Below are positions 19,801 through 37,787 of a stretch of DNA of 64,000 nt, piece by piece (position 1 is the first letter of the stretch; each line of letters starts with the position of its first letter). The notes beneath the pieces are model-generated. The model did no database searches and was not told the origin of the DNA. It saw only the letters and a list, made by a program, of their open reading frames with translations. This stretch comes from Pontibacter russatus (GTDB lineage: Bacteria; Bacteroidota; Bacteroidia; Cytophagales; Hymenobacteraceae): positions 992,001 through 1,056,000 of the forward strand of contig NZ_CP047984.1 in NCBI RefSeq assembly GCF_009931655.1, given 5' to 3'. Made by a program: the position numbers and the translations under genes.

Positions 19801-19905
19801 GAGGGATTCCGGCCTTGGGACAGCAGCTTGGACGCATCACGTGCCTGACCCAGATAATGTTGGGACACCGGGACAGCTTCAGCATGCGTCCCAGAGACAG
19901 GTCAG
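19801..19905 (+). pseudogene. Decayed partial copy of the HTH gene linker region
   Basis: The sequence GGGACAGCAGC, then GACGCATCACGTGCCTGACC and GGGACAGCTTCAGC, aligns base by base with about 95 bases of the HTH gene starting at 19055, with scattered substitutions and a small deletion. Only the linker-coding part is present, with no HTH. Confidence 0.55.
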
Positions 19906-20105: not shown

Positions 20106-20117
20106 AATTCTAATTGC

Positions 20118-20182
20118 AGGTAAACGGCCGCGTGCTTAAGATGCCGAAGCGTTAGCGAGGTAACTTAAGCATTGTGTTGTAC
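20118..20182 (-). other. attC-like site 1
   Basis: Core ends are AGGTAAAC (20118-20125) and GTTGTAC (20176-20182). The inner stem GTGCTTAAG/CTTAAGCAT encloses GAAGCGTTAGCGAGG, a loop sequence shared with sites 4 and 7. The GTTGTAC core is complementary to GTACAAC of site 2. Confidence 0.8.
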
Positions 20183-20192
20183 TTTGTAGTTC

Positions 20193-20585: not shown

Positions 20586-20611
20586 TCCTGTTTTTCTATG
20601 ATTTCTATAAA

Positions 20612-20663
20612 GTACAACGGTTTGGCTATGGCGCGTTTTATTGCGCTATAGCTTTTGTTGTGC
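20612..20663 (-). other. attC-like site 2
   Basis: A 52-bp site with GTACAAC (20612-20618) and GTTGTGC (20657-20663) cores, and stem GCTATGGCGC/GCGCTATAGC around a TTTTATT loop. GTTGTGC is the reverse complement of GCACAAC at site 3. Confidence 0.85.
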
Positions 20664-20669
20664 GATCGT

Positions 20670-21746: not shown

Positions 21747-21758
21747 TTTATCAATGCT

Positions 21759-21810
21759 GCACAACGGTTGGGCTAAAGCACGCCTTGGTGAGCTTTAGCT
21801 TGGGTTAGGC
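21759..21810 (-). other. attC-like site 3
   Basis: Cores GCACAAC (21759-21765) and GTTAGGC (21804-21810) bound a stem GGCTAAAGC/GCTTTAGC. The end of the 21795-22472 gene lies inside this site: the GTTAGGC core encodes its residues Pro-Asn. Confidence 0.85.
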
Positions 21811-22472
21811 TTTGTGGTTTTTGACTCTAAATATTTTTCGAAGTTGAACTGTCCAGAATTGACTGCCTCTACAAATTGCCTGAGGCTGTTGCTAAGTAGC
21901 TCAATTTCATAAGGGTCATGTATCAAGCCGAAGACTTTACCATCGCCGTCAATACAGAGATAGTTTCCATCTTCTAAATCCTTTATCTGGTAGTAGGCCT
22001 TTCCGTTCACTTCGATTTCGGAGAGGTCTTCGAGGTCAAGCTGCTCGGATTTTAGATTTCCTACAATTTTGGCCAGCTTATCATTTTGGATAAGTACTTC
22101 CTTCAGTTGTGACACATCAATCTGGTAGCCTTTTAACTTGGTGATGTCCTTCTCGAATGCAAACCCACAGAACAAACCATCAGACACTATAAAGCTAAAA
22201 TCATAAGAGTTTCCACCTTCTGTAATCTTTATATTTTTTACCTCAAACCCAATCCCTTTTATCATTGAACGGTCTGCTTGTGCCGGGTCAAAGCCGATGG
22301 AATAATGGTTTGCTGGCATGGAGTAGTTGACAGAGTATCTTCTATATAATCCCTTAGTCAATCCCTCTAATAAGAAACCATATCGCTGTGGAAGTTGAGA
22401 AAACAGGTAATGGAAGAAAGCCAGTGATTTTCCTTCAATTTTCCAGCTTGTTTTCTTAAAGAGTCCAAACAT
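21795..22472 (-). CDS. Cassette gene, hypothetical protein with SUKH-like C-terminus
   Basis: The 225-residue protein starts MFGLFKKTSWKIEGKSLAFF. Near the C-terminus GNYLCIDGDGKVFGLIHDPYE and LRQFVEAVNSGQFN look like the end of SMI1/KNR4 (SUKH) proteins, a superfamily common among toxin-immunity proteins. The rest does not match a family I recognise, so an immunity role is a weak inference. The final codons lie within attC site 3. Confidence 0.7.
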   Translation of the reverse strand: MFGLFKKTSWKIEGKSLAFFHYLFSQLPQRYGFLLEGLTKGLYRRYSVNYSMPANHYSIGFDPAQADRSMIKGIGFEVKNIKITEGGNSYDFSFIVSDGLFCGFAFEKDITKLKGYQIDVSQLKEVLIQNDKLAKIVGNLKSEQLDLEDLSEIEVNGKAYYQIKDLEDGNYLCIDGDGKVFGLIHDPYEIELLSNSLRQFVEAVNSGQFNFEKYLESKTTKPNPS

Positions 22473-22488
22473 TATAAATTTCTATAGA

Positions 22489-22554
22489 GCCTAACGGTTT
22501 GTACAGCCTAAGCCCGCAGCGTAGCAAGGGTTAAGGCTGTACAAACCGTTAGGC
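22489..22554 (-). other. attC-like site 4 (near-perfect palindrome)
   Basis: GCCTAACGGTTTGTACAGCC and its exact complement (22535-22554) form a 20-bp perfect stem, ending in GCCTAAC and GTTAGGC cores. The loop contains GCAGCGTAGCAAGGGTTA, close to site 7. This is the most attC-like site by eye. Confidence 0.92.
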
Positions 22555-22563
22555 TTTGTTTTT

Positions 22564-23178
22564 TTACAATTCTATCAAATCATAAGATTCTGAAAAATAG
22601 AAGTCAATGTTTTTTTCTTCCCAAAAGAAACCATCCGTAAAATCTCTAAAACCAAACCAATTGTCAATGGCCGCAATTATTAGGTTCTTATCTTTAGTTT
22701 GAAGCCTAATTCCGACATCAACAACATTACCATATTCTTCCAAAAAGTGAATTCCATTTGAAAGGCTGGGTTTCACCATTATTTCCTCTTCAGTGGAAAA
22801 TCCTGAAGAAATTAGATTCTCAATAGTTTTGTTAGTTGCTTCGCTACCAAAATTTACTGTTATATACTCCTTATCAATCTGGCCCCAATAAATAATAGTT
22901 TTTAGGATTTGAATTCTATCTATAGTAATGTAATCGGCAATAATTCTGTCGGAATCATTTAGTATTAACTTTTCACTGATTAGCTCTGGTCTGGTGAATT
23001 TAATTTCTTGGCTTCCTGACTTGCTAATTCCATTCTCCAATTCCATAGAAAACAAAATGTAGTAAGTCCCAAAGTCAAGGATATAATAAGTGAAATTATA
23101 AATTACTCTTTCTGCCGTTTTACCAATTAGTTGTTTTAAGATTTGCCTTTCAGCTTCGGAGTATTCTAATCTTTTCAT
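22564..23178 (-). CDS. Cassette gene, hypothetical protein (204 aa)
   Basis: The protein (MKRLEYSEAERQILKQLIGK) is a soluble, aromatic-rich alpha/beta protein with YYILDFGTYYILFSMELENG and a C-terminal WFGFRDFTDGFFWEEKNIDF. No family was recognised. It sits between sites 4 and 5, its stop 10 bases from the core, with the low GC typical of the array. Confidence 0.75.
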   Translation of the reverse strand: MKRLEYSEAERQILKQLIGKTAERVIYNFTYYILDFGTYYILFSMELENGISKSGSQEIKFTRPELISEKLILNDSDRIIADYITIDRIQILKTIIYWGQIDKEYITVNFGSEATNKTIENLISSGFSTEEEIMVKPSLSNGIHFLEEYGNVVDVGIRLQTKDKNLIIAAIDNWFGFRDFTDGFFWEEKNIDFYFSESYDLIEL

Positions 23179-23203
23179 TAATCATTTCTTAACTTTAAAT
23201 TAT

Positions 23204-23256
23204 GCCTAACGTACTGGGCTAAGGCACGCTTCAGTGTGCTTTAGGTGTGGTTGGTA
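23204..23256 (-). other. attC-like site 5
   Basis: Cores GCCTAAC (23204-23210) and GTTGGTA (23250-23256); stem CTAAGGCAC/GTGTGCTTTAG with a bulge. GTTGGTA is complementary to TACCAAC at site 6. Confidence 0.82.
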
Positions 23257-23298
23257 GTAGGAATTATAATGTCAACCAGCAGTGGATATCTGATTACA

Positions 23299-23646
23299 TT
23301 ATAAATATTTTATCAATTGAGCCTTTACGGTTATTCCATCACCGGCTCCTTTGATGTCTTCTGTGGTTAAATCATAAAAGATTACAGCATCGGCTCCAAC
23401 CGATTTAGCCTTTGTAATCATTTCTTTTTTTATAATTTCTGGATCATATTCTATAAACTTATCGTTTGTCATTCTCCCAATTACCTTGTATTCTTTCTTT
23501 ACTTCTTTTACATCATAATAGAGATCAACTGAAGTTGAAGGCTGATAAGATTCGCCCAAATAATGGATGATAGGTCCGCTACATGAGGTATGTATCAAAC
23601 AAATCAATATACCAATTGTAATTAAAAGCAAATTTCTATTCTTCAT
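23299..23646 (-). CDS. Cassette gene, small lipoprotein
   Basis: Starting at ATG 23646 (MKNRNLLLITIGILICLIHT) the protein has a lipoprotein signal with lipobox HTSC, then a domain of about 90 residues: DVKEVKKEYKVIGRMTNDKF and KKEMITKAKSVGADAVIFYD. The alternating V-x-G-A-D-A-V strand recalls small YbjQ-like or surface-antigen-like folds, but this is only a resemblance. A longer frame starting at 23709 would read through attC site 6 and is rejected. Confidence 0.75.
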   Translation of the reverse strand: MKNRNLLLITIGILICLIHTSCSGPIIHYLGESYQPSTSVDLYYDVKEVKKEYKVIGRMTNDKFIEYDPEIIKKEMITKAKSVGADAVIFYDLTTEDIKGAGDGITVKAQLIKYL

Positions 23647-23672
23647 GGAAATTTTAATAATATTCTTATTAC

Positions 23673-23741
23673 TACCAACGGCCTCGTGTAAAAAGCGTTG
23701 ACATCCCAAAGGGTGGCAATGGTTTTTATACCTTGTTAGCA
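23673..23741 (-). other. attC-like site 6
   Basis: Cores TACCAAC (23673-23679) and GTTAGCA (23735-23741); stem built from GTAAAAA, TTG and CATCCC paired with GGGTG, CAA and TTTTTAT. The TGCTAAC core on the minus strand contains the TAA stop codon of the 803-residue cassette gene. Confidence 0.82.
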
Positions 23742-26147
23742 GTTGTTTTTATTCTGTTGTTTGTTTGTCTGTATTGCTTCATTTCGTTTCTTCATTTCCT
23801 CTTGCCATAGTTCACTTTGTATTTCTCCCCAAGTTTTTATATTTAAATGCCTTTTTACCGAAAACTCACATAAATTTCCAATCCAGTCGTTGTATATGTG
23901 AAAAGGTTTAGAGTCTTCTTTGTACTCTGAAAAATGATTCCAAAAATCATTTGGTAGCAGTTCTTTAGCAGTTAAAATAAGGACTGGATTTGTTGGCCGG
24001 TGCCCAATGCCAGTTCTAAAATGATTCACAACTTTTAGGATTTCTGCTTTTTCATACTCTGTTAACTCGTTATTTAGTGTTGCAAATGTCAAAATTGAAT
24101 TAGGAAATTCAGTTCCTAATTCAATCATTCTGTCAGCATCGTTAGATGTGAAGTTTTTGTATGTTTTACATTCGCAAAAAATCAAATCAGGCGGAATACT
24201 GTCTCTGTGCTTTTCTTGAAGCATAACAGCAAGATCAACTTCTTTTATTTTTTTATTTTTTTCAAGTTCAAAACCAATAAGTGCAGACATATTTCCTGAA
24301 GTGTCGGCAAATTCATGGTTAAACAATTTAAGAGTTAAAAATACAGTTATAACACCACCAACTTTATTGTTCTTGCTGAAAGGCCCAATTCCACGGTAAG
24401 CCCATTTTATTTCGGTTGGTTGATGCATTGGCAGACTAAAGTTATTTCTGCAAATAGCACAAGTCATTGTTTCTGTTAACTCGGACGGAAGGTAAAAAGA
24501 GTGCTGATGGCAAACTTCACACTGTAGAATTGACCCAAATTCAATTATCTTATTTTCTATTATTCTTTTAATGTAAGAGTTGACTTGTTCATTATTATTA
24601 ATCTTCAAACTTTTTTTTATTTCTCCAACTAATTGAGGATGATAAACGGTTTTACCGTCCTCAATCAACGCAAGTATATTAAGTGAAGCTTTGTTTTGTA
24701 AAAAATACGAACCTTGTATACCACCAATATTTTTTAATACTTCATTTGCTAAACGACCATTTGAGGTTTCGTTTAGTTTATTTCCGCTCTTGGAAAAATA
24801 GACTTTAAAAAAATCTTTAGCTTTTGGAATAAAGAAACGCACCTCATCATCCTCCCGTCTAGCATAGTGACTTAAACCTGTTTTAGATAATCGCCATTTA
24901 TTTCGACCAAAAGAATGGGTCAATCTTATCCAGTCAATTGTTTCTATGCCATATATCAGCCCTGCATCGTTTAAATATTCATCAAAATAACTAAACGTGA
25001 GGTTTACTTTATGTGAAGCTATAAGATTATAATTGTATTTAAGTTTGAATGGTAAGTGGTCGGTTGCGAATTTCACATGATTTTCTTGGACTTCTACTTG
25101 CAAATAAGATGAATTAATTTGTGTTTTCCCGCAGAGAACTTTGTCAGCTTCTAATACAGACCTTTCCCCAGACCAAAATCTGGGAAACCAGCCTTGAAAT
25201 GCAAAATTCAGATTACCCCCAATTTTTTTCTGTACTTCCTGAAGCTTTTGCTCAATCTTTTGTATTTGTTCAGGTGTTATTGTGGCGCTGAATTGATAAT
25301 TTATCAGTGAGAAACTTTCGGAATTATTTAATTTAGACGCACTAAACCTTTCTATAAATCCACTAAAATATAGATTATCTAATTGGCTAAGCGGTATTGG
25401 AACAATACTCCAGCCTAGAGCTCTTAGATTCCAATAATTAATAAGGTCGTTTAACCTTGCTTCGTTTAGAAAATAAATACCTTCGCCCTTAAACCAATGT
25501 CTTTCAGGAAATGAGTTTATTTCTTCTATATTAATATCTAACGAGCTAATATTTTCATTTGGAAAATGGTCAGCAATGTTGTCAAAAGTTATTTCGGGCT
25601 GTTCGAAATATGAATAGGAGTTTAACTGATTACCTATTTCTTTTTGAAAGCTATCTACAAAACAACCAATAAAAGACTTTAAAAATAATCCCGAATTTTG
25701 TGTATCGGGAAGCAAAAGCTTTAAATTATCATTCCTTACAAACTTAAACTCTGTTTCAATGATGTGAGAAATTAGTTGAGGAACGATTATTCCATATTGA
25801 ATTTCTCCTTTTTCTGTATTAGAAAGAAAGTCTTCAATTGTTAGTAAAGTTCTGTCACCAATTAATGTCTTAATGTATTCTACATCCAAAGAACTGTCAT
25901 AAAGAATAAGATCGGGATCAAAATTTTCTATTGTGTTTTGGTAGTAATCTAAAGCATCATATTCTATTGCATATTCATTTTTAAATTCGTTCGGTAAAAC
26001 TGAATGAAGTGGTAAAATTGGGCTGAAAATTCCTCCCCAATATGAAAATGCAATTTTGACTGCTCGTTCAAATTTGCTCTCAGAATTAGGCTCAATTAGA
26101 AAAAAAAATTTTATTGGTGATACTGTCTGATTTACGCCTATTGTCAT
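23736..26147 (-). CDS. Cassette gene, 803-aa zinc-ribbon and PD-(D/E)xK-like protein
   Basis: The first 500 residues are unrecognised (MTIGVNQTVSPIKFFFLIEP). A four-cysteine zinc ribbon lies at about 542-571 (CEVCH, then CAICRNN). About 65 residues later EVDLAVML and LIFCECKTYKNFTS fit the acidic and E-x-K parts of a PD-(D/E)xK nuclease fold, ending in SILTFATLN and helical segments. I infer a nucleic-acid-targeting, possibly antiphage, protein; this is not demonstrated. It is the largest cassette, its stop codon built into the attC core. Confidence 0.7.
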   Translation of the reverse strand: MTIGVNQTVSPIKFFFLIEPNSESKFERAVKIAFSYWGGIFSPILPLHSVLPNEFKNEYAIEYDALDYYQNTIENFDPDLILYDSSLDVEYIKTLIGDRTLLTIEDFLSNTEKGEIQYGIIVPQLISHIIETEFKFVRNDNLKLLLPDTQNSGLFLKSFIGCFVDSFQKEIGNQLNSYSYFEQPEITFDNIADHFPNENISSLDINIEEINSFPERHWFKGEGIYFLNEARLNDLINYWNLRALGWSIVPIPLSQLDNLYFSGFIERFSASKLNNSESFSLINYQFSATITPEQIQKIEQKLQEVQKKIGGNLNFAFQGWFPRFWSGERSVLEADKVLCGKTQINSSYLQVEVQENHVKFATDHLPFKLKYNYNLIASHKVNLTFSYFDEYLNDAGLIYGIETIDWIRLTHSFGRNKWRLSKTGLSHYARREDDEVRFFIPKAKDFFKVYFSKSGNKLNETSNGRLANEVLKNIGGIQGSYFLQNKASLNILALIEDGKTVYHPQLVGEIKKSLKINNNEQVNSYIKRIIENKIIEFGSILQCEVCHQHSFYLPSELTETMTCAICRNNFSLPMHQPTEIKWAYRGIGPFSKNNKVGGVITVFLTLKLFNHEFADTSGNMSALIGFELEKNKKIKEVDLAVMLQEKHRDSIPPDLIFCECKTYKNFTSNDADRMIELGTEFPNSILTFATLNNELTEYEKAEILKVVNHFRTGIGHRPTNPVLILTAKELLPNDFWNHFSEYKEDSKPFHIYNDWIGNLCEFSVKRHLNIKTWGEIQSELWQEEMKKRNEAIQTNKQQNKNNC

Positions 26148-26196
26148 TTCTTATTTTCGTATTGTTAATTGTGTTATTAGCTTGTGTTAAAATAGC

Positions 26197-26261
26197 TGCT
26201 AACGTGCTTGTACAGCCGAAGCCTGAAGCGTAGCGAGGGTTAGGGCTGTATCTTGTTACCT
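26197..26261 (-). other. attC-like site 7
   Basis: Cores TGCTAAC (26197-26203) and GTTACCT (26255-26261); inner stem TACAGCC/GGCTGTA enclosing GAAGCGTAGCGAGGGTTA, nearly identical to the loop of site 4. Confidence 0.88.
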
Positions 26262-26265
26262 GCTT

Positions 26266-27222
26266 TTATTTTTCTTCCGAGTTTACTTTAATATGATTCA
26301 GCACTCTCTCATGGATTTGATGGATGATAAAATCACTCCAAGGTCGCCAATATAGTGCAGGCTTAATATTATGGTAGTACCAAGTTGTCCCTTCTAATTT
26401 TGTCTGTCCGTTGGGTAGTGCTGTCAGTTTGAACTGCCCCTGTTTAGATACAAAATAATCGTGCAAGTGAGGTGCGTTAATATCCCAGAAGCTAATCTCT
26501 TTCATTGGCTCAGGCTGTTCTACTACGTCAAATTTTAGTAGCCTTGGCTCATCCCATACCGTTACGGGTTCTACAAAGCTGCCTGTTGTAAAATTGCAAT
26601 GGCGAACTGCGCCAACACCACTGCCTTCAATCCTTGCGTTGATAGGATAGGCTATACCTGTTTTAAAAATAAATTCAGTTGGCTCATCAAGTTCTGGAAA
26701 CTCAATTACATTTTTCCAGACAGTCTCTGGAGAAGCATTGATTACAATTGAAGTAACGACAGAAGAAAGGTGAGGCTCTTGTTCCTTTTCTATGAAGGCC
26801 ATAGTCGGAATTGAGGCCATGACTATTAGAATTATCGGTGCTGAGCTATTCGGAGCTTTAGAGATAATTTCATGCCCGAAAAAGCTACCCATCCATGTAA
26901 GTAGTACAGCTATTGGAGCCGCCATTGCAATGCAAATTAGACCTTCTATCGCGAAGGCCATTAGCCCTAAACTAAAGATTATAAGAGTCAGAAAGGCAAT
27001 GTTTCGTGATTCCTTGTATGTTACAGTTCTGTTGTATCCGAATAATATTGTTGAAGCTAAACCTATGAGCAATGGAGTTAAAATGAAAAGAGCAATTCCA
27101 TATTCCCCAATCCCATAGATTCCCCAAACAGTCAATGGTCCAGCCAACAGAATAGTTAAGGCTACAGAAAGCCACCTTCTCTTTTTTCTATCTGTTGACA
27201 ATATCTTATTGAGAAAACTCAT
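26266..27222 (-). CDS. Cassette gene, membrane protein with SRPBCC domain
   Basis: The N-terminal 150 residues contain four to five transmembrane segments (LSVALTILLAGPLTVWGIYG; IALFILTPLLIGLAST; ILIVMASIPTMAF). A SRPBCC/START-like domain follows from about 160 (SIVINASPETVWKNVIEFPE, VGAVRHCNFTTGSFVEPV, TKLEGTTWYYHNIKP). Such domains bind hydrophobic ligands. The stop lies 5 bases from the site 7 core. Confidence 0.8.
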   Translation of the reverse strand: MSFLNKILSTDRKKRRWLSVALTILLAGPLTVWGIYGIGEYGIALFILTPLLIGLASTILFGYNRTVTYKESRNIAFLTLIIFSLGLMAFAIEGLICIAMAAPIAVLLTWMGSFFGHEIISKAPNSSAPIILIVMASIPTMAFIEKEQEPHLSSVVTSIVINASPETVWKNVIEFPELDEPTEFIFKTGIAYPINARIEGSGVGAVRHCNFTTGSFVEPVTVWDEPRLLKFDVVEQPEPMKEISFWDINAPHLHDYFVSKQGQFKLTALPNGQTKLEGTTWYYHNIKPALYWRPWSDFIIHQIHERVLNHIKVNSEEK

Positions 27223-27234
27223 AATTGTAATTGC

Positions 27235-27366
27235 AGGTAACGGTTTACGGCTTTGCGATGTGGCGGCATTTTAGCACAAAAGTTCAATAGAATTACTGAT
27301 GTTGAATCTTGCACAAATGTTTCATAGTAGCACTTCACCCGCCATATTGCAAAACCGATGTTATGC
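27235..27366 (-). other. attC-like site 8 (long form)
   Basis: Cores AGGTAAC (27235-27241) and GTTATGC (27360-27366). The stem CGGCTTTGCGATGTGGCGG pairs with CCGCCATATTGCAAAACCG with three mismatches, leaving a large central loop; at 132 bp it is the longest site. GTTATGC is complementary to GCATAAC at 28250. Confidence 0.8.
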
Positions 27367-27403
27367 GGTCGGCTTTCGATTTCAGTCAGTTTTATCATTG
27401 TCT

Positions 27404-27610
27404 TTAACAGCAATTTGTCCCGGCTTGAATGGATGGACATTTCACTGTTCCATAGCTACAAAATACACAACAGTCGCCCTGTTTTGGCTTTAATACCTTT
27501 TTGCAGCTTTCGCACTCGTAAAAATATTGGCAAGCGTCTGTCGGCATAGTTTCTTCTTTCTTATGTCCACATTCAGGGCAAGTGATAGTTGATTGCAGGA
27601 TTATGTTCAT
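27404..27610 (-). CDS. GDCCVxC-type small zinc-ribbon protein
   Basis: The 68-residue protein MNIILQSTITCPECGHKKEE has a CPECG knuckle, CESCKK, and the signature GDCCVFCSYGTVKCP. This domain is often encoded beside mercury-transport genes. Its ATG overlaps the merTP stop (ATGA at 27607-27610), so the two form a coupled operon inside one cassette. A role in mercury or soft-metal handling is inferred from cysteine content and neighbour. Confidence 0.85.
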   Translation of the reverse strand: MNIILQSTITCPECGHKKEETMPTDACQYFYECESCKKVLKPKQGDCCVFCSYGTVKCPSIQAGTNCC

Positions 27611-28206
27611 TTTATTTCTTTTTTGTCGGTTACGGAATAGCCTGTTTTAGTTATGGCTTTTTCTATCTCTTGAATGTCGGTTTGAGTTCTATCAAATTCT
27701 ATGATTGCGTTGCCGTTGTCGTAAGAAACATTCGTCTTAATTATTCCTGTCAGTTTATTTACTTCGTGATTTACGTTTTCTTCACAACCTGCACAAGTCA
27801 TTCCGTTAATTGTAAATTCTGCTGTTTTAATGTTTGATTGGTCGGTTATGATTGTTTGACTTTCTGTCTTTGGAAAGAATATGTGGACATAACTTGGAAA
27901 CGCAAGCATCAGTCCTGCAAAAACTGTTACGAAACCCAAAAACTTTTTTGTCTGAATAAAGGGTGTTTTTTCAGTTGTGTCGCAGCAGTCAATTTGTTTT
28001 TGAGGTTTCAGTTTTTGATACCAAGCAAACGCAAGAACCAAAACTGTCAAGCCAATTAAATATGGTCTGAATGGGTCAAGCCAAGAGAAAGTAGAAGCAA
28101 GTCCACTTGTTCCAGCCAACAGAGCCAAAACAGGTGTAATGCAGCATAGTGATGCCGAAATTGCTGTCAAAAGTCCAAGTCCTGCAAGTTTATTATCTGA
28201 TTTCAT
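27607..28206 (-). CDS. merTP: Mercuric transport fusion protein MerTP
   Basis: The MerT part (residues 1-125) has three transmembrane segments with the paired cysteines ASLCCITPVLALLAG in the first helix and QIDCCDTTE in the loop. The C-terminal HMA domain (about 130-199) has the metal-binding motif GMTCAGCEENV, replacing periplasmic MerP. It should move Hg(II) inward; no merA reductase is visible in the window, which is odd. First cassette of the array. Confidence 0.93.
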   Translation of the reverse strand: MKSDNKLAGLGLLTAISASLCCITPVLALLAGTSGLASTFSWLDPFRPYLIGLTVLVLAFAWYQKLKPQKQIDCCDTTEKTPFIQTKKFLGFVTVFAGLMLAFPSYVHIFFPKTESQTIITDQSNIKTAEFTINGMTCAGCEENVNHEVNKLTGIIKTNVSYDNGNAIIEFDRTQTDIQEIEKAITKTGYSVTDKKEIK

Positions 28207-28249
28207 TTTCTTACTGTCAATGTCGTTGGTTGTTGTCTTTTAAGCTGCC

Positions 28250-28394
28250 GCATAACTATGGTATATACGGAAGTCTATTCGGCTTATCTGCACTATGTGT
28301 GGAGGTAGGTTTACCTGTTTGAGCAGGTTCCTTCCCACAATGCACACTTTAAAAAGGCCTCCCGTGTATACTGTATAGCTAATATAGTTCTTTC
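28250..28394 (-). other. Candidate attI / first cassette junction
   Basis: GCATAAC at 28250-28256 complements the GTTATGC core of site 8, marking where the first cassette begins. The remaining ~140 bases up to the recombinase stop carry no gene. They contain an imperfect inverted repeat (CTATGGTATATACGG with CCGTGTATACTGTATAG), so this junction is structured rather than a simple sequence. Confidence 0.6.
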
Positions 28395-29852
28395 CTACAG
28401 ATTGTCAAGCGGGCTCACGATTTTATCCAGCGCATGCATCGTCACGTGCGTGTAGACCTCGGTGGTCTTGCTGCTCCTGTGGCCGAGCAGCACCTGGATG
28501 TAACGCAGGTCCGTCCCCTGCTCGAGCAAATGGGTGGCAAACGAGTGGCGGAGCGTGTGAGGCGTTACTTTCGCCTTGATGCCGGCCCTTTCGACACAGG
28601 CCCTGAACACATTCCGCGTGCTGTCCACGGTGTACTGGCCCCCAAACTGCCCCTCAAAGAGCCACTCCTTCGGCTTGTAGGCTTTATAGTAGGACCTCAG
28701 GTTCTCCAAAAGCTTCTGCGAGAGCAGCGTCGTGCGGTCCTTTTTGCCCTTGCCTCCCCTGATAAACAGCAGGTTCCGTTCCGACTGCACGTCGCTGATC
28801 CGCAGGTTGACGACCTCTCCTATCCGCAATCCACCGGCGTAGAGCAGCTGCAGCAGGCAGCGGTGCTTGATATTGTCGGTGGCTGAGAGGATCCTGGCCA
28901 CCTCCTGCTTGCTGAGCACAGTGGGCAGCCGCTCGGGTTTCTCGGGGCGCTCCACGTTGCGCAGCTGCACCTCGTGCCGCCCCAGCACGCGCTGGTAGTA
29001 GAACTTGACGGCGTTGATCGACTGGTTCACGAATGAGCAGGAATAGGCGCCTGCCTGCACCATCTGCCGGTGATAGCAGTTGATCTCCTCCTCGGAGAAG
29101 GCATTCACCTGCTCCAGGCCTCTGTCTCTGTGGCTGTTCAGGAAGCGCAGCAAAAGCGAGTGGTAAGAGCGGATAGTGTTCAGGGAGTAATTGAGCAGGA
29201 AGAGCTTCTCCAGGTAATCGATCGGGCAGGTGATGTAGCCCGGCCCCTTCTTGTAGGTCTGCTCCCAGAGCCTGCGCAGCAGCACCACGTCGCGCACCAC
29301 CAGCTCCTGGCTCAGCCACAGCCAGCCGACGCCCTCCAGCTCCTCGGCCAGGGCCTGTATGTGCTGCCCGCCCTCCGGGATGGCGAAGCACTTCTGTACC
29401 CGCTGCCAGGCGGCCAGCCTGCTGTATTTGAGCGTCTCGTACACCTGCTGGCTGTATCGGAAGGTAACGCTTATAACCGTTTTGTTTTCCTCCACCAACA
29501 TCGGCTGGAGCTTCACCACCGGCAGGTCGGGCAGCTTCTGGAGCGGCTCCCCCTGCTGCCCTCCTGCCAAAACCGGAACAAGCTTACTGGGTTTCAGCCT
29601 TTTGGGGCGGTACAGGTAGCGCGTGTTCACCTGTGCCAGCCCCTGGAAGTGGCCGAAAGTCATCTCGATGCTTTGCGGGCTGTGGCTCATCACAAAGCAC
29701 TTGTAGGTCTTGCTGTATTTGATCCAGGATGCCTCCTTTAGCCGCTTAACAATAAAAGGGTTAGGCTTATGCCAAAGGCGAATGAACTGTTTTCCCTCAT
29801 GCTCAAGCGCGTTCAGGTATAGAACGGGGGCCATGTGGTAGGTCTGCTGCAT
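28395..29852 (-). CDS. Tyrosine recombinase with duplicated N-terminal module (integron-integrase candidate)
   Basis: The C-terminal 300 residues are a XerC/D-type recombinase: SAM-like core-binding domain (LNYSLNTIRSYHSLLLRFLN), then catalytic Arg in GGLRIGEVV, Lys in GKGKKDR, HTLRHSFATHLLEQG, LLGHRS and the nucleophile in TTEVYTHV. The N-terminal ~200 residues hold two similar modules (around SWIKYSKTYKCFVM and AAWQRVQKCFAIPE). The IntI-specific insertion between the Lys and HxxR motifs is not seen. I chose ATG 29852; the longer frame from 30062 overlaps the divergent gene. It abuts the cassette array in the same orientation. Confidence 0.88.
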   Translation of the reverse strand: MQQTYHMAPVLYLNALEHEGKQFIRLWHKPNPFIVKRLKEASWIKYSKTYKCFVMSHSPQSIEMTFGHFQGLAQVNTRYLYRPKRLKPSKLVPVLAGGQQGEPLQKLPDLPVVKLQPMLVEENKTVISVTFRYSQQVYETLKYSRLAAWQRVQKCFAIPEGGQHIQALAEELEGVGWLWLSQELVVRDVVLLRRLWEQTYKKGPGYITCPIDYLEKLFLLNYSLNTIRSYHSLLLRFLNSHRDRGLEQVNAFSEEEINCYHRQMVQAGAYSCSFVNQSINAVKFYYQRVLGRHEVQLRNVERPEKPERLPTVLSKQEVARILSATDNIKHRCLLQLLYAGGLRIGEVVNLRISDVQSERNLLFIRGGKGKKDRTTLLSQKLLENLRSYYKAYKPKEWLFEGQFGGQYTVDSTRNVFRACVERAGIKAKVTPHTLRHSFATHLLEQGTDLRYIQVLLGHRSSKTTEVYTHVTMHALDKIVSPLDNL

Positions 29853-29900
29853 AGCTTCGGGGGTTATTTTTAAGCAAATTAAACCCCGCCTGTTACCCAC

Positions 29901-29958
29901 CCGTTTTCTGAAACACATAAGTGCGTTTATAAACGCAACTATACGTTTCAAAAAACGG
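29901..29958. promoter_or_regulatory. 58-bp coaxial double palindrome between divergent genes
   Basis: An outer inverted repeat CCGTTTTCTGAAAC / GTTTCAAAAAACGG (13 of 14 positions) and an inner perfect palindrome TGCGTTTATAAACGCA share the same centre, separated by 7-base spacers. It lies between the recombinase and the zinc-ribbon gene, as expected for a shared operator or a recombinase-binding site. Confidence 0.75.
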
Positions 29959-29966
29959 ATGTTTCG

Positions 29967-30341
29967 ATGAAAGAGGAAAAACAGTGCCCCCAGTGCGGCA
30001 ACACGCTGAGCGGAAGGTCGGACAAGCGCTTCTGCTCCAATCAGTGCCGGGCGCAGGCCCACAACGCCGACAGGCGCCAGAACAGCGGCGAGCAGCTCAT
30101 CCTGAGCATCAACGCTATCCTGCGACGCAACCGCACCCTCTTAAAGCAGGCCAGCCCGCAGGGCAAAACCACCACTTACCGGCAGGTGCTCGAAATGGCC
30201 GGTTTCGACTTCCGCCACTTCACCCACACCTATCGCACCAAAAACGGCAATACGTACCAGTTTTGTTACGACTACGGCTACCTGCTGCTCGAGGAGGAGA
30301 AGGTGCTTATTGTCAACTGGCAGCCTTACATGGAGAAGTGA
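29967..30341 (+). CDS. Zinc-ribbon (DUF2116-like) protein
   Basis: The N-terminus MKEEKQCPQCGNTLSGRSDK followed by RFCSNQCRAQAHN forms a four-cysteine zinc ribbon typical of the small DUF2116-like proteins of Bacteroidota. The C-terminal 80 residues (LLKQASPQGKTTTYRQVLEM, YDYGYLLLEEEKVLIVNWQP) form a small conserved domain of unknown function. Divergent from the recombinase across a large palindrome, so co-regulation is plausible. Confidence 0.8.
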   Translation: MKEEKQCPQCGNTLSGRSDKRFCSNQCRAQAHNADRRQNSGEQLILSINAILRRNRTLLKQASPQGKTTTYRQVLEMAGFDFRHFTHTYRTKNGNTYQFCYDYGYLLLEEEKVLIVNWQPYMEK

Positions 30342-30382
30342 GCTATACCTCTACGATCTCCCAAAAAGCCTCTAAAGCAGCA

Positions 30383-30427
30383 AAATCACTGTGGATAAGG
30401 TTCGATAATTCCATCCTTAGGTCTACA
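30383..30427 (+). repeat. 45-bp direct repeat, copy 1 (tRNA 3'-half-like)
   Basis: Matches 36456-36500 at 41 of 45 positions. It contains TCACTGTGGATAAGGTTCGA and ends GGTCTACA. With small gaps it resembles the tRNA-Glu 3' half (TCATTCTGGTAACAGG, GGTTCGAT, CTACCA), and it is followed by a terminator hairpin, as copy 2 is. Confidence 0.7.
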
Positions 30428-30509: not shown

Positions 30510-33500
30510 CTATTCCACTTTTACCTGCTTCAGACCTGTCCTGCCATAGAAGGTCGGGAAGTACATGAGCTCTGCCTTGGCAGGATTTATAGTAAAAGTG
30601 CCATTGTAGCGCGGCAGCAGCTTGATGGTGTATTGATGCTTGCCTTTGGGTAGCTTGCCACAGAAGATGCTTACTTTGCTTCGGCGGTACTCGCGATGCT
30701 CTTCGTAAGCACCTCTTCCTGTTTTTTCCCCATAAGAACAGCTGGCTGGTATGGGCACCTCAACCATCACATACTCCGCATCGGCTCTTACCTCAACCTC
30801 CACCAGCATTTCCATCGGGGCTCCGGCTTTCAATGGCGCGCCTTCTTTTATACCTTTTAATGATGTCTTTACCACAAAATCCTTGTCTGCGGCCTTTGGT
30901 TCGCTGTTCCAAATGGTTTGGAAGGCAGTAAGGTAAACAGGCAGATTCCCTTGCTTTTTCACTGTCAGCGGCTGAGAGGCAACAAAGGTGGTATCTGCAC
31001 GGTAGTTCTTTGCCTCAAACGCAATGGCCCCAGCGAAAGCCAGCTTGTTTGCTGCAAGGGTTGGCTTTTCTGCAGATTCCTGCAGCAGGTCCGGCAGCAG
31101 GGTTTCGAGCACACGTGCCGATTCATAGGTGTTGCGCCAATGGCCTGTGCCGCGCTCGCTCAACAAATACGCCCTGATTTGCGCCAGCTCGCGCTCGTAG
31201 TTGCCCAGGTTACGCAGAATCTTGTATGCCAGTAGCGTATTAGAGATGTTGTTATTGAAAAGGCTCCACTTTTTATCACCCCAATACAGGCCGCCCAGCA
31301 TGGTTTGCTGCTTATACTTCTGCAGTGTGTCCAGCTGCACCGGCAAGTCGTGCTGCTGCTGTAGCAAGATCAGGCGCAGCCTTTCTTCCAGGTTCAGGTG
31401 CTTCTGTTTGCTTAGCTCCTTTAGATAGCGCGGGTAGTCCACTTCGGCTTTAAGCTGATGCAGGGTTTCCAAGGCCGTAATTTTCTCGAAAGTATGGTTT
31501 CCTTCCAGTACATACACCAGGTAGTCTTTCAGTTCTTCCTCTTTATAGTTTGGATTGTAACCTTCTTGCTTGGCCATCAACAGCGCCTGGCTGGCATGGC
31601 TCGTGATCCAGGCATAAGCAGGGCCTTGCTCCCACCAGGTCCAGGCACCGTTATGGAGCTGCGTCTTTTCCAGATGCCGCACCAGCTTCTTCACCATGCG
31701 CTCGTGCTCAAACTCCTGCCCCAGCTGCTTACGGATACGCTGCTCCAACAACAGGGCCATCAGCTTAGAGGCGGCCTGCTCGCTGCACCAGTACTCATAC
31801 TTGTGCAGGTGGTCAATTTCGTCCAGCATCACCTGCAGCAAATCGCTTTGGGTGCGCAGAGTTACCGGCCCCAACGCAGGGTCAAAGTTCAGAGTAAAGC
31901 TGGTGTCTGCGTAAAGCGGCAGGAACTGGCCGACGGTTTCTTCCACGCCCTTAGGAAAGATGCTGAGATAACGCTTTTCACCGTCAGCCATACCGCCTTG
32001 CTTCTGCAGACTGTACAGCACCTCCACGGAGTCCGGCGCCAAAGCGGGGGCTGTTATCAAAACGGTGTCTGTTAAGCTTCTTGTCAGGGTTCTTGTCGCT
32101 TCTTTCGCTTTTTTGCCTCCTACTTCAAACGTAGTGGTCACGACGGCTGAGTCCGGGAGGTAGTTGAGCGCCTTGCCCACCACATAGGCCTTATCGCCCT
32201 CCACCAAAAAGCGCGGCAGGTGTAGCGTGGCCATCATCGCCTTAAAGGATTTGATGTTGGTGGAGTAGATGCCGCTGTTTCTGCGGTGGTCCATGGCCAG
32301 AACAAACGTGTTCCAGCTGGTGATGTCGTCTGGAAATTTTGCCGTAAAGGAAACCTCTCCCTGCTTGTTGGTCACCAGGCGGGACTGCCAGATGGCATAG
32401 TCAGAGAAGTTGTTTCGGATAGAGTTGGCTTGCGTCGGCTGGTCCAGGTTGGCACCTAGGGGGAAATCTGCCATTAACTTGCCTTTGTCGGTGGTGATGA
32501 TGATGACACCGGCTCTGGCAACCGCTCCGTACAAGGCAGTTGCCTCCTCACCTTTCAATACTTTCGTGCTCGTAATGCCTGCAATATCCCCCTGCGAACC
32601 GCTGTATGGCACCCCGTCCACAATAATCAGCGGCTTGGCATCCTCCGCTTTCATACTTATACTTGAAACACTGCGAATTTGCACACCAGCTGCGGTTCCC
32701 TGTAAGGCAGTAGCCACTGTATTAGCCACCGTGTACTTGTGCTGCTGCACCCCATAGCCTGTCACGACCACCTCCTGCAACTGCTGAAAGTCGAGTTCTA
32801 ACATAGCATTAATCCTGGACTGCCGCTGAATTTTTTCTTCCAGCGTTGTATAGCCGATAAACCGGAAAGAAAGGGTGCCCTGCGCAGGTGCATAAAGCTT
32901 GTAGTACCCTCGCTCGTCGGTGGTGGTGCCTACATTGGAGCCCTCCACGACGACAGTAACACCGGGCAGCGGCTCCCCCGATTCCTTATCAGTAACCACG
33001 CCTGAAACAGCGTGCGTGAACTGCTCTAAACCATTGGTATAGGTATAAGTGGTGGCGTTGGCGGTCTGCAGCTGTTGCTGAAGTTCCCTGGCTGTTTGTT
33101 TCGCCGTTTTCCTGAGTGAGTCTATCTTCGTTTCCACCAGTTGCCGTAGGTACTCACTTTCGGTGGATGCCTGCTTTACATCAGCAGCACCGAAGTACAG
33201 CTGCACTTGCCCGTTTGGTTTCACGTTTACGACTGTCGCAACGAAGTCTCCGTTTGTAAAGGCAAGGGTTAAGTTATATTTGTCGGGCTTCAGGTTATAC
33301 AAAACACTATTTTCGGGTGCGTATACCTGCAGCGAGTCAGGCCTCCCGTTTGTATGCAGAAAAACAAGGTTTACCCGTTGCTTTATCTCATCACCTAGTT
33401 GCCAGCCTATCCTACCCATGCCTGCAGCTATTTCATGCCTTCTGTTCTTTTCATACACCTTGTTGAGGTAGTACTGGCGCTGTGCGGCTTCCCATGCTTC

Positions 33501-36353
33501 ACTTATTTTGTGCTCGGTTAGCACTTGTTGGTGCAGCAGCACTGCGCTATGGTCAGACTTGTTCCAATAAGGCAAGGCTCCCAAATGCAGGGGAAAAGGC
33601 TGCTCCCGCATTTTCAGCAGGCTTGGCTCAAAATGGTAGCTATAGCCTGGCTCCATCATGAAATTGGTCCTGAAGCTGTTTAGCCTCACATACTGCATCC
33701 AGTCCGGGCTGAAGGGCCCGACCAATAATCTTTCTTCGCCTCTTTGAAAATAACTTTGCCGGGGAATACTTTCGAGCAACTGGATCTTATTGCCCTGCTT
33801 TAGGTAAGACGTAGGTTCATCGTAAGCTTTCTCCACGAAAAAGAGGTATCTGAAAAGCTTTCGCTGTTCTTCTGAGGTTAAGGCAAGTTTGTTAGCAGGA
33901 TGTGCAAACTTGTTAGAGGCAGCCGTGATGTCGGCGCTGACCACCAGGCGCTTTTGGTGCTGCAGGTACAGACTGTCCAGCGTGATTAGTTTATCAGCAG
34001 TGCGCAGTTCAAGGGTATGGTAACCGCTATCGGCTGCAAAGGCATAGGCGTTTAACGCGTCAGTCTTGGAAAAGTATACCGGCACTTCGTCCAGGTAAAT
34101 CACATGCACCGGCACCACCCTGCCCGAGTCCACCACAAACGGGGAAACCTGCGTGATGCTGTCGGCATTAAAAGCATGCTCTGTGAAAAAGCCAGCTTTA
34201 GGGTATAAAAAGTTATAGTATTCGATGCTGTCCAGCCCCATGCGTTGGCTCCAGTAGGTCCAATCGAGTGGTTTTTTACCGCTGAGGCTCTCTTCATCTG
34301 CCGTAACGCGGCGTACGGGTTTCTGGGGTTTATACTTGTCCCACGAAGGCAGGTCGGGCGTGTTTGGCTCCTTAAACTTAGAGGTGATGGCATAGGCCGT
34401 CAGGTCTACCTTTTCTACCGGATTTCCATTGGTATCCGTCACCGCAATTTTCAGGCTTGCCTCCTGCCCCGGGTATACTACCTGTGGCGTTTGCAGGTCT
34501 ATGGTAAGCTGATGCCTGCGCAGGGGCAATGCTTCCTCTTTTTTATGCACCGCACCGGCCCAAACATAATGCACCGCTACAAAATATGGCTTGGCGCCAT
34601 TTGCCTTTTGCCTGAACGTATAGCTTTCTTCCTTGCCTTCGCCGCGCGCCACTAGTTTATCACCACGGTACACAAAGTACCAATACGGAAGCTTTCGCGG
34701 GTTTTGCACGGCTATATAAAGCGAGTCGGTAGTCCGGAGAGTTTGAAGGTTGAACCGGGCCTCTTCCTGCTCCAGATCGGCATCATCAAAGAAATCTCCT
34801 GCCTCCACCCTGTAACCGCTGGCGTAGGGGTTCAGCGGCACGCGCGACGGCAACGTCAGCTTCTCAGTTGTAATGGCATCATAGTCTGCGTTGTTGGCCG
34901 TCAGTGTTGCTTCTTTATGCTTTGAGCTGCTGCCCTCCAGGTACTGCACCAGCAAGCTGTCCTGCAGCAATGTTATCTTCAGGCTCCCGCTCGTGTGATT
35001 GTACCTGGCGTGCTGAGATTTTTGCGTGCGCTCGTTGCTGCTGTTTAGAAAAGAGGCCTGCACCTGATAGTTTATACTTGCTTTCGGGAAGATGCTGTCT
35101 GGTAGTAAAATATTGGTTTCCCCTACTGCGTCCAGCGGCTGCCGGTGTCTCCAAAGCGTGTCCGGCACAAACACCTGAGGCTGTTTGCTTTGTAGCACCA
35201 GGGCCGTGGTCACAACCAGTTCTACCCTGGTGTCCAGGAGGTTCATGCCGTTGGCGTTGGTGCCGCGCACTTTTACCCTGTTTTCCTGCCCGGTCTGGTG
35301 TTCTTCCCGCTCCAGGGCCAGGGTATACTCATTTTCATTTAGCTCATAATCCTCGTACCTGAATGAACCGCTAAGATACTCCTCCTCATGCTTTCCGATT
35401 TTGTGTAGGCTGATGCTATACTGCCGGTCCAGGCTAAGCTTCAGGCTGTCGTGAAGTATAAAATATCCCTCGTAAGCACCCTCTTTATATGGTGCCACCT
35501 CGGTTATCTTTTTGGCGGGGACGTTGTAGCCATACAGTTTCAGCTGCGCCTTTCCGTGTACCGGCTTTCCGTTTTTATCTACCACAAAGGCCTTATACTT
35601 TACTGTGTCACCAGGCTGGTACATGGGTTTATTCGTGACCAGGTAGCCCCTGTAGTTCCCTGCGTTTCTCGACCTACTGTACTGGGCATCGAACACAGCG
35701 AACACCCGCCTGACCCAACCCTGCGGCTGCTGCCACCGAACCGACTTGTAAGCATCGTAGAAGGGCCGCCAGAAATAGTAGATAGGCGCAAAGTGCGTCA
35801 TCTTGCTGATAAAGCTGCGCTTGTAGTAACCCTCCTCTTGCTCGAACGTTTGGTAGAGCAACACCCCTTTCCATTTTACCGTTACAAGCCCCTCCTTAGG
35901 GTTATGCCGGAGGCGGTAAGTTTTTGTCTTCTCGTCGAAGTCCGCTTTTTTGCAATTTACCTGCACTTCTGCATCGGTTATGGTATTTCCGAGGCTGTCG
36001 TGCACCAGGATGGCCAAAGCCGGTTTAACCTGTAGAAGCTTCACTGCCACCTGGGCAACCGTCTGCAGGCTGTAAACTAAATCTGCCTCGCTGCTGTGCA
36101 CGTACAGGTAGTGGCCGTAAGGCAGCTGCTTACCGTAATAGGTGTTAGTCGTAAACGAGTCTACGGGAGTATGGAAGTATGACGGGCCTACCACCGCTGT
36201 ACTTAAGTCGTACATGGCTTTCGCCTCTTTGTCAGAAATCCTGAAAATGTATGTATAGGGACTGCCGGTGCGGAAGCGTTCTACTTTGGTTTGGGCGGCA
36301 CAGCAGAAGGAGCAAAGCAGCAGCACGAGAGCAAGTATAAGTAGTTTTGTCAT
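30510..36353 (-). CDS. Alpha-2-macroglobulin-like protein with carboxypeptidase-regulatory and TonB-plug domains
   Basis: A signal peptide (residues 1-20) leads to MG2-type repeats (about 238, VTNKPMYQPGDTVKYKAFV). In the middle are a CarboxypepD_reg-like domain (about 1115-1175, SGVVTDKESGEPLPGVTVVV) and a SusC-like TonB plug (about 1196-1300, EVVVTGYG, IIVDGVPYSG, ATALYGAVARAGVIIITT). The A2M domain follows (about 1315) with a CSEQ thioester-like motif near 1522. At 1947 residues it is probably an envelope-anchored protease-trapping or wall-maintenance protein; no beta-barrel is seen. Confidence 0.85.
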   Translation of the reverse strand: MTKLLILALVLLLCSFCCAAQTKVERFRTGSPYTYIFRISDKEAKAMYDLSTAVVGPSYFHTPVDSFTTNTYYGKQLPYGHYLYVHSSEADLVYSLQTVAQVAVKLLQVKPALAILVHDSLGNTITDAEVQVNCKKADFDEKTKTYRLRHNPKEGLVTVKWKGVLLYQTFEQEEGYYKRSFISKMTHFAPIYYFWRPFYDAYKSVRWQQPQGWVRRVFAVFDAQYSRSRNAGNYRGYLVTNKPMYQPGDTVKYKAFVVDKNGKPVHGKAQLKLYGYNVPAKKITEVAPYKEGAYEGYFILHDSLKLSLDRQYSISLHKIGKHEEEYLSGSFRYEDYELNENEYTLALEREEHQTGQENRVKVRGTNANGMNLLDTRVELVVTTALVLQSKQPQVFVPDTLWRHRQPLDAVGETNILLPDSIFPKASINYQVQASFLNSSNERTQKSQHARYNHTSGSLKITLLQDSLLVQYLEGSSSKHKEATLTANNADYDAITTEKLTLPSRVPLNPYASGYRVEAGDFFDDADLEQEEARFNLQTLRTTDSLYIAVQNPRKLPYWYFVYRGDKLVARGEGKEESYTFRQKANGAKPYFVAVHYVWAGAVHKKEEALPLRRHQLTIDLQTPQVVYPGQEASLKIAVTDTNGNPVEKVDLTAYAITSKFKEPNTPDLPSWDKYKPQKPVRRVTADEESLSGKKPLDWTYWSQRMGLDSIEYYNFLYPKAGFFTEHAFNADSITQVSPFVVDSGRVVPVHVIYLDEVPVYFSKTDALNAYAFAADSGYHTLELRTADKLITLDSLYLQHQKRLVVSADITAASNKFAHPANKLALTSEEQRKLFRYLFFVEKAYDEPTSYLKQGNKIQLLESIPRQSYFQRGEERLLVGPFSPDWMQYVRLNSFRTNFMMEPGYSYHFEPSLLKMREQPFPLHLGALPYWNKSDHSAVLLHQQVLTEHKISEAWEAAQRQYYLNKVYEKNRRHEIAAGMGRIGWQLGDEIKQRVNLVFLHTNGRPDSLQVYAPENSVLYNLKPDKYNLTLAFTNGDFVATVVNVKPNGQVQLYFGAADVKQASTESEYLRQLVETKIDSLRKTAKQTARELQQQLQTANATTYTYTNGLEQFTHAVSGVVTDKESGEPLPGVTVVVEGSNVGTTTDERGYYKLYAPAQGTLSFRFIGYTTLEEKIQRQSRINAMLELDFQQLQEVVVTGYGVQQHKYTVANTVATALQGTAAGVQIRSVSSISMKAEDAKPLIIVDGVPYSGSQGDIAGITSTKVLKGEEATALYGAVARAGVIIITTDKGKLMADFPLGANLDQPTQANSIRNNFSDYAIWQSRLVTNKQGEVSFTAKFPDDITSWNTFVLAMDHRRNSGIYSTNIKSFKAMMATLHLPRFLVEGDKAYVVGKALNYLPDSAVVTTTFEVGGKKAKEATRTLTRSLTDTVLITAPALAPDSVEVLYSLQKQGGMADGEKRYLSIFPKGVEETVGQFLPLYADTSFTLNFDPALGPVTLRTQSDLLQVMLDEIDHLHKYEYWCSEQAASKLMALLLEQRIRKQLGQEFEHERMVKKLVRHLEKTQLHNGAWTWWEQGPAYAWITSHASQALLMAKQEGYNPNYKEEELKDYLVYVLEGNHTFEKITALETLHQLKAEVDYPRYLKELSKQKHLNLEERLRLILLQQQHDLPVQLDTLQKYKQQTMLGGLYWGDKKWSLFNNNISNTLLAYKILRNLGNYERELAQIRAYLLSERGTGHWRNTYESARVLETLLPDLLQESAEKPTLAANKLAFAGAIAFEAKNYRADTTFVASQPLTVKKQGNLPVYLTAFQTIWNSEPKAADKDFVVKTSLKGIKEGAPLKAGAPMEMLVEVEVRADAEYVMVEVPIPASCSYGEKTGRGAYEEHREYRRSKVSIFCGKLPKGKHQYTIKLLPRYNGTFTINPAKAELMYFPTFYGRTGLKQVKVE

Positions 36354-36455
36354 AGCATGGCTGGGTGAAGCATAAATATACTAATATATATTAATGATTC
36401 TTTATATAGTACCTCAACCAACTACTGAACTTCTATATATTCCTCTAAGGAGGAC

Positions 36456-36500
36456 AAATCACTGTGGATAAAGTTCGATAATTCACTCCTTCGGTCTACA
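36456..36500 (+). repeat. 45-bp direct repeat, copy 2
   Basis: This is the partner of 30383-30427 and lies beyond the 5' end of the macroglobulin-like gene. Differences are four substitutions. It ends CCTTCGGTCTACA and is followed by a terminator hairpin, as in copy 1. Confidence 0.7.
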
Positions 36501-37627: not shown

Positions 37628-37787
37628 CTATCCAATCATAGATGGTGCGCTCACTAACCCCTGTAAGAGTGGCTACCTGCTGGACATTGCCTATTTGGGA
37701 AACTAACCGAAGCACGATGGCCTTGCTGTCTGAATGATGGCTGCTGTAGCTGTTGATAAACTTCTCCAGACGTTCGGGTTCTTCCAC
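37554..37787 (-). CDS. IS630 transposase, N-terminal HTH part
   Basis: The 77-residue frame has a helix-turn-helix (KAIVLRLVSQIGNVQQVATL, then TGVSERTIYDWIGDWNKKRR). It is read in a different frame from the catalytic part and overlaps it by 74 bases including the slippery A-run, so a fused transposase is probably made by ribosomal slippage. Confidence 0.85.
   Translation of the reverse strand: MEEPERLEKFINSYSSHHSDSKAIVLRLVSQIGNVQQVATLTGVSERTIYDWIGDWNKKRRRACKQAGRRGRSRTQA

Follow-up and report, generated by a model that had tools for sequence, protein, structure and literature searches.

Evidence for a probable sedentary chromosomal integron in Pontibacter russatus with a proposed XerA-type integrase that lacks the IntI additional domain

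The additional domain (I2), which the literature treats as necessary, is considered a defining characteristic of integron integrases (PMC9668308) and is credited with having made single-strand recombination possible (PMC7790495), and integrases have been collected via this domain or via a profile of it (PMC2426708; PMC8352920). With IntegronFinder 2.0, one complete integron was reported in the Bacteroidetes proper, in Salinibacter (PMC9024848). Clusters of attC sites without an integron integrase are denoted CALINs. We found no description of integrons without the additional domain in the open-access literature; preprints and most subscription papers were outside the scope of this search, and priority is not certain. 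In Treponema integrons, intI is oriented in the same direction as the cassettes, and the integrases carry the additional domain, as far as is known. Archaeal XerA is a chromosome-dimer resolvase.

We analyzed a stretch of 64,000 nucleotides from Pontibacter russatus (hereafter, the window). Comparative evidence suggests that it very likely contains a sedentary chromosomal integron belonging to a class for which we could find no description, with a XerA-type integrase lacking I2; no recombination was observed. The locus was evaluated for a cassette array bounded by attCs, for attCs that are conserved imperfect hairpins, for an attI with a G|TT insertion point adjoining the integrase gene, and for an integrase that carries the additional domain and belongs to the IntI clade. 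The platform comprises the following features:

28395-29852, minus strand: XerA-type tyrosine recombinase of 485 amino acids, the proposed integron integrase, with N-terminal alpha/beta repeats (residues ~5-76 and ~105-180), a SAM-like domain, and a catalytic domain without the IntI insertion
28379-28408, minus strand: candidate cassette promoter (Pc), TTG-N19-TATATTAG, which spans the recombinase stop codon and reads into attI and the cassettes
28256-28299, minus strand: attI-like site CACATAGTGCAGATAAGCCGAATAGACTTCCGTATATACCATAG, with the crossover G|TT at 28256/28255
29967-30341, plus strand: zinc-ribbon protein of 124 amino acids, a conserved partner divergent from the integrase
29895-29960, no strand assigned: intergenic upstream region common to both genes, with the inverted repeat TGCGTTTATAAACGCA (sequence given directly) inside a larger repeat

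The initial annotation had described a recombinase that adjoins the array, is transcribed in the same direction as the cassettes, and is not a typical IntI. Each of these points is borne out: the recombinase gene and the cassettes are both on the minus strand, and the array starts, at the G|TT junction, 139 nt past the recombinase stop codon. The catalytic set that it had reported (R343, H432, R435, H458, and Y467) is complete and is invariant across the recombinase family, and the Pfam matches to Phage_integrase (residues 312-472) and to a SAM-like DNA-binding domain (~213-292) leave about 210 residues for the N-terminal extension that it had put at ~200. Also absent, as it had stated, is the IntI insertion between the catalytic motifs. 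In the recombinase, 58 residues separate GKGxKDR from HTLRH, versus 100 at true IntI loci and 65 in XerC/D-type proteins, and the IntI model TIGR02249 aligns in two pieces (model positions 7-179 and 244-315) that skip the IntI-specific stretch at positions 180-243. By both measures the recombinase fails the requirement for an additional domain, and its TIGR02249 score (210 bits) is below the cut-off of 265. The label 'XerD-like' is better replaced by 'XerA-like', as the sequence scores higher with the XerA-type model (NF040815; 213.9 bits) and with IntI (210 bits) than with XerD (188 bits). It falls narrowly under the curated NF040815 cut-off of 220 bits and does not qualify as XerC or XerD (186-188 bits versus cut-offs of 330-335).

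In an AlphaFold2 model, the two N-terminal repeats have one alpha/beta topology. They are also alike in sequence, at a level reached by only 0.05% of shuffles, and one repeat of this kind is present in many relatives. HARP (PF07443) was the best Pfam match in two relatives only (E about 0.001; 18.6-18.9 bits versus a gathering threshold of 25), and a Foldseek search of the PDB with the N-terminal part of the recombinase returned no significant match and was uninformative for that region. With sub-threshold sequence matches and no significant fold match, homology to HARP was not upheld, and the HARP-like character of the repeats is only a lead.

The initial annotation had called for a tree, and in the reconstructions the recombinase falls outside of IntI. 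IntI proteins form one clade (100/99 support) from which the recombinase is excluded, such that it does not meet the requirement for IntI-clade membership, and its group sits with XerA-like proteins; the separate Xer of the same genome groups with XerD, apart from the window recombinase. It is nonetheless conceivable that the recombinase is a true IntI that has secondarily lost the additional domain. TIGR02249 is among its best models (at 210 bits), its C-terminal SPLDNL resembles the end of IntI, and a clade of IntI and the whole new enzyme group is not rejected (p-AU = 0.142). However, a clade that joins IntI with the Hymenobacteraceae enzymes alone is rejected (p-AU = 0.0019), and a short spacing of 56-59 residues characterizes both the Bacteroidota group and XerA-like relatives of other phyla, wherever it is measurable. 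Derivation of the Hymenobacteraceae enzymes from IntI by loss of the insertion was therefore discarded, and we consider it quite unlikely that the window recombinase is a reduced IntI. The value of 0.142 means that one origin of integron function cannot be distinguished from two.

The sequence 3' of the recombinase gene reads CACATAGTGCAGATAAGCCGAATAGACTTCCGTATATACCATAG|TTATGCGG. An attI-like site is present just 3' of the gene in 36 homologous loci, with the junction about 125-155 nt past the stop codon, and the similarity between these loci stops at TAG|TT (two junctions read TAG|TG). A conserved site at which similarity ends in this way behaves as an insertion point, and the locus therefore satisfies the attI requirement. 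In locus pairs, the recombinase genes are 92-94% identical and the attI leaders are 83-85% identical, while 0% of the first 3 kb of the array is in common. Such unlike arrays behind near-identical platforms indicate turnover at attI. A sequence matching the Bacteroidota promoter consensus (TTG-N18..21-TAnnTT) crosses the recombinase stop codon in 28 of the 36 homologous loci versus 1.3% of random windows; we propose that it is the cassette promoter Pc, for which there are no transcription data.

The zinc-ribbon gene is divergent from and adjacent to the recombinase gene in all 37 of 37 close loci, and it has this arrangement, at 32-41% identity, in six Flavobacteriaceae/Saprospiraceae loci as well. 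Its product is possibly a regulator or accessory factor of the integrase. Long locus-specific inverted repeats separate the two genes in the window (29895-29966) and in homologous loci (e.g., CCGCGTTATTACCCGCGTATACACGTGTATACGCGGGTAATAACGCGG in L074), and these are candidate operators for the zinc-ribbon protein or the integrase, a function that is inferred. On the 5' side, most close pairs share little past the ~0.5 kb with the zinc-ribbon gene, which places the platform in differing contexts. The same pattern could be produced by a recombinase that mobilizes its own platform (zinc-ribbon gene and recombinase) as an integrative element, with the 3' site serving as attachment site and the cassettes arriving by other means. 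However, the sequence beyond G|TT consists of cassettes with heads that match their own attC tails rather than of chromosomal flank, and we recognized no second attachment site that would delimit an element, which leaves only the slightest chance that mobilization of the platform accounts for the locus.

Eight attC-terminated cassettes follow, with genes that run leftwards from 28206 in the recombinase's own direction, and imperfect hairpins flanked by ..YAAC and GTT.. lie between the cassette genes. The cassettes and their attCs are as follows:

27241-28255, minus strand: cassette 1, MerT+HMA transporter (27607-28206) and zinc-ribbon GDCC protein (27404-27610); head TTATGCGG, tail CCGCATAAC
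27232-27368, minus strand: attC of cassette 1, long (137-nt) Bacteroidia type; 115.2 bits, E 1.8e-22, site mostly in the training set
26203-27240, minus strand: cassette 2, 318-aa membrane/polyketide_cyc2 protein (26266-27222); head TTACCTGC, tail GCAGGTAAC
26194-26263, minus strand: attC of cassette 2; 51.1 bits (training site)
23679-26202, minus strand: cassette 3, 803-aa protein of unknown function (23736-26147)
23670-23743, minus strand: attC of cassette 3; 46.6 bits (training site)
23210-23678, minus strand: cassette 4, YbjQ-like lipoprotein (ORF 23299-23709, with the start probably at or near 23667, within the cassette)
23201-23258, minus strand: attC of cassette 4; 30.6 bits (training site)
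22495-23209, minus strand: cassette 5, 204-aa unknown protein (22564-23178); head TTAGGC, tail GCCTAAC
22486-22556, minus strand: attC of cassette 5; 34.4 bits, E 2e-5 (outside the training set)
21765-22494, minus strand: cassette 6, 225-aa protein with a weak SUKH-1 match (21795-22472)
21756-21812, minus strand: attC of cassette 6; 30.2 bits (outside the training set)
20618-21764, minus strand: cassette 7, DUF2971 protein (20670-21764); head TTGTGC, tail GCACAAC
20609-20665, minus strand: attC of cassette 7; 26.6 bits (outside the training set)
20125-20617, minus strand: cassette 8, 130-aa unknown protein (20193-20585); head TTGTAC, tail GTACAAC
20116-20184, minus strand: attC of cassette 8; 33.0 bits (outside the training set)
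19902-20124, minus strand: start of a ninth cassette with a 67-aa ORF (19902-20105); the cassette appears truncated at the array's distal end

Covariance models identified the eight attCs of the window, all on the minus strand, and no attC was recognized beyond the start of the ninth cassette (19902-20124). The attCs at 22486, 21756, 20609, and 20116 had no part in training and returned E-values of 2e-5 for the best and otherwise from 4.5e-5 to 0.0018. Those at 26194, 23670, and 23201 are training sequences and most of that at 27232 was used to train the long model, such that their scores are not independent. The head of a cassette (TTRRRY) is the reverse complement of its own tail (R'') because both derive from one circular molecule. 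We observed this match exactly over at least 6 nt in cassettes 1, 4, 5, 7, and 8 and over 7 nt in cassette 3. With eight attCs and heads that match their own tails, the locus meets the requirement for a cassette array. The attC of the first cassette is of the long type, the main type of the wider Bacteroidia loci, which suggests that cassette 1 was probably acquired from another lineage.

Other features of the window were noted. Direct repeats of 59 nt that are 85% identical (30369-30427 and 36442-36500) flank a 1947-aa gene (30510-36353), and two overlapping ORFs at 36734-37787 resemble parts of a frameshifted IS630-type transposase. A tRNA-Glu (12373-12447) overlaps the end of a gene for a 612-aa serine recombinase (12407-14245); this overlap (12373-14245) may mark the place where an element that extends toward the array's distal end integrated.

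Of the 27 homologous loci for which 3.5 kb of array was available, 24 have a first cassette with a tail that matches its own head over at least 8 nt, compared to 8.8% when heads were exchanged among loci. Head-tail chains averaged 4.5 cassettes per locus; dinucleotide shuffles gave 0.11 and 5' flanks 0.02. In L160, L162, L166, and L169, which served as positive controls, the head-tail test recovered first cassettes on the 5' side of canonical intI. A start-free version of the chain test was lenient, with 13 of 40 control flanks giving a chain of at least one, and counts were therefore taken from covariance models. The model built on 36 attCs yielded 270 matches in 43 loci; by table count, the 5' flank contained none of these, and all but 7 were located 3' of the recombinase and on the same strand as it. 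The long attC model had no match at control loci (true IntI, XerC/D, Patescibacteria, and Alphaproteobacteria). Chance attCs were ruled out by the shuffles, the swapped heads, the 5' flanks, and the control loci. A recurrent and apparently non-coding first cassette (TTGGCCGTGATTG... or TTAAATCCGTCATTG...) was noted after attI in L054, L061, L064, and L066 and at 5444 in L016; similar sequence occurs in several genomes, with no clear tail of its own.

Alignments of attCs fold as imperfect hairpins with compensatory changes at 7 of 9 pairs in the short type and at 15 of 16 in the long type (about 137 nt; the majority of attCs in the wider Bacteroidia loci), in agreement with the requirement for conserved imperfect hairpins. 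Position 24 is an invariant unpaired A in both types (T on the bottom strand) and resembles the extrahelical bases docked by I2 in canonical attC, although there are no functional data. These observations bear on an alternative chemistry, in which the same integron would rely on ordinary exchange of both strands between double-stranded attI and attC and not on a folded single-strand attC. XerA relatives act on double-stranded DNA. The recombinase has no I2, the element that docks extrahelical bases and to which the avoidance of second-strand exchange is attributed (PMC7790495). However, the strong covariation of the stems and the invariant unpaired A24 of both types are as expected for a folded-strand substrate, and the R'' and R' around one hairpin of the array need not match, the match being within the cassette. 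Two-strand exchange is thus rather unlikely but remains a serious possibility, and for the preferred reading, that the substrate of the recombinase is the bottom strand of attC in folded form, the inference is without direct evidence. Likewise, the suggestion that the N-terminal alpha/beta repeats, weakly HARP-like, recognize hairpin features in place of I2 is inferred and has no direct evidence.

The initial annotation had named two observations that would count against an integron built on such an enzyme, namely a canonical intI elsewhere in the genome and homologs of the recombinase that never adjoin attC arrays. Neither was encountered: the whole 4.97-Mb single-contig genome contains no TIGR02249 match above the cut-off, and adjacency to attCs recurs across Bacteroidota. 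The genome encodes a second integron (C1:4603578-4609200; L016 2500-8200) that comprises a 69% identical paralog, its own attI-like site, and its own cassettes, with attCs (models R1/R2) at 4643, 5316, 5953, 6519, 7246, and 8049. A third platform (C1:2361608; L019 ~560-1950) retains a recombinase remnant and an intact-looking attI-like site. A matching attI-like site thus follows all three recombinase copies in the same place, with a different cassette head after each. The last cassette of the second integron carries a toxin-antitoxin-like pair (HigB/HigA type), and the third platform has a single cassette with an OmpA-like gene and a weak attC at 1878-1947.

With a profile of the family, strong relatives were identified in 150 of 295 genomes of the class Bacteroidia (93 of 156 genera), whereas canonical IntI was identified in one of the 295. 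In the wider phylum sample, canonical IntI was found in 84 of 297 genomes, and every listed case but that one genome belongs to another class. From the 150, 40 loci were drawn, mainly for room for flanking sequence. Among the 32 loci with at least 2.3 kb of 3' flank, 29 adjoin attCs (table count): 26 have them 3' on the same strand, three (L236, L240, and L241) have them 5' and divergent, and in the other three none were found. The long attC model was trained partly on sites of these wider loci. L236, L240, L241, L114, and L121 belong to the same enzyme group and, with attCs 5' and divergent, have the classic integron layout. These members and the three loci without attCs count against the proposed reading. 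The association of recombinase and attCs also extends to named genomes of Flavobacteriaceae, Cyclobacteriaceae, Sphingobacteriales, Bacteroidales, and others. Several draft contigs (L056, L061, L066, L216, L228, L230, L233, and L239) stop within a few hundred bases on the 3' side of the recombinase, as would be expected if assembly fails in arrays, and counts from drafts are therefore lower bounds. In a Spirochaetota MAG (L122 10900-11780), a XerA-like recombinase has a head-tail match of 10 nt on its 3' side, along with a weak attC match; the enzyme class may extend beyond Bacteroidota.

These distributions also allow evaluation of whether the array is an ordinary CALIN, with cassettes inserted in trans by a canonical IntI that was lost or is plasmid-borne and with the XerA-like recombinase as an unrelated neighbor. 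Standard annotation rules require the additional domain and would label the array a CALIN, CALINs are common (PMC8618304), and nine genomes of the same genus carry attCs without a strong recombinase match. That no integron integrase is nearby is true by the IntI definition and false if the recombinase is itself the integrase. Within the family, attCs were detected genome-wide in all 65 of 65 genomes with the enzyme versus 12 of 86 without it, a comparison in which genera are clustered and that does not represent 151 independent points. The near absence of canonical IntI from Bacteroidia and the adjacency of attCs in 29 of the 32 testable members are difficult to reconcile with an unrelated neighbor. 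So are the family-wide retention of the attI-like site with the recombinase, where array similarity stops at G|TT, and the same arrangement at both full recombinase copies of the genome. We consider an ordinary CALIN very unlikely.

The array, the attI-like site, the cassette boundaries, the co-occurrence with the recombinase, the turnover of arrays in close relatives, the covarying hairpins, and the missing insertion are all evident from sequence. That the recombinase catalyzes the cassette reaction is a strong inference because the association is near-constant and there is no other candidate. In the proposed mechanism, the recombinase would insert circular gene cassettes at attI just 3' of its own gene, pairing attI with the folded attC of the circular cassette and cutting between G and TT of GTTRRRY. 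An inserted cassette would land beside Pc and be read from this Bacteroidota-type promoter spanning the end of the integrase gene, while attC x attC reactions would excise or shuffle cassettes. The divergent zinc-ribbon protein is presumed to be part of the platform. More tentatively, and without claiming an even chance for it, we suggest that integrons arose or were rebuilt a second time, from a XerA-type enzyme of Bacteroidota that uses folded single-strand attCs without I2 and recognizes hairpins via its N-terminal part, as the main system of Bacteroidia.

Integrons were previously thought to be almost absent from Bacteroidia, and the enzyme type described here is present in about half of the sampled genomes, mostly beside cassette arrays. 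If the class is real, then integrons that escape current searches or are labeled as CALINs occur in a large share of Bacteroidia, and an owner is found for a large pool of cassettes. A natural I2-less integrase would also make it possible to test how the use of attC hairpins by a tyrosine recombinase came about.

Compared to integrons of the IntI type, both sedentary chromosomal and mobile (IntI1/VchIntIA; PDB 2a3v), the system shares an attI beside the integrase gene, mostly single-gene cassettes terminated by attCs, the G|TTRRRY crossover, imperfect-hairpin attCs with covarying stems, and high cassette turnover. It differs in that the integrase lacks the additional/I2 domain, is outside of the IntI clade, and carries N-terminal alpha/beta repeats, and in that the integrase gene is usually co-oriented with the cassettes and has attI at its 3' end and a divergent zinc-ribbon partner. 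It works like an integron but fails two integrase-defining features (additional domain and IntI clade) and is thus not an IntI integron. Among proteins without the insertion, XerA-type recombinases (NF040815; PDB 4a8e, 5hxy) have the closest catalytic domain but, unlike them, the enzyme described here is linked to attI/attC arrays and carries N-terminal repeats. The HARP domain (PF07443, SMARCAL1) has a similar W..P motif, although its matches are sub-threshold and homology is not shown. Archaeal integrons also have attI downstream of intI, but their integrases carry the additional domain (PMC9668308). Finally, whereas CALIN is the label that current rules would give, the arrays described here adjoin a conserved recombinase and an attI-like site.
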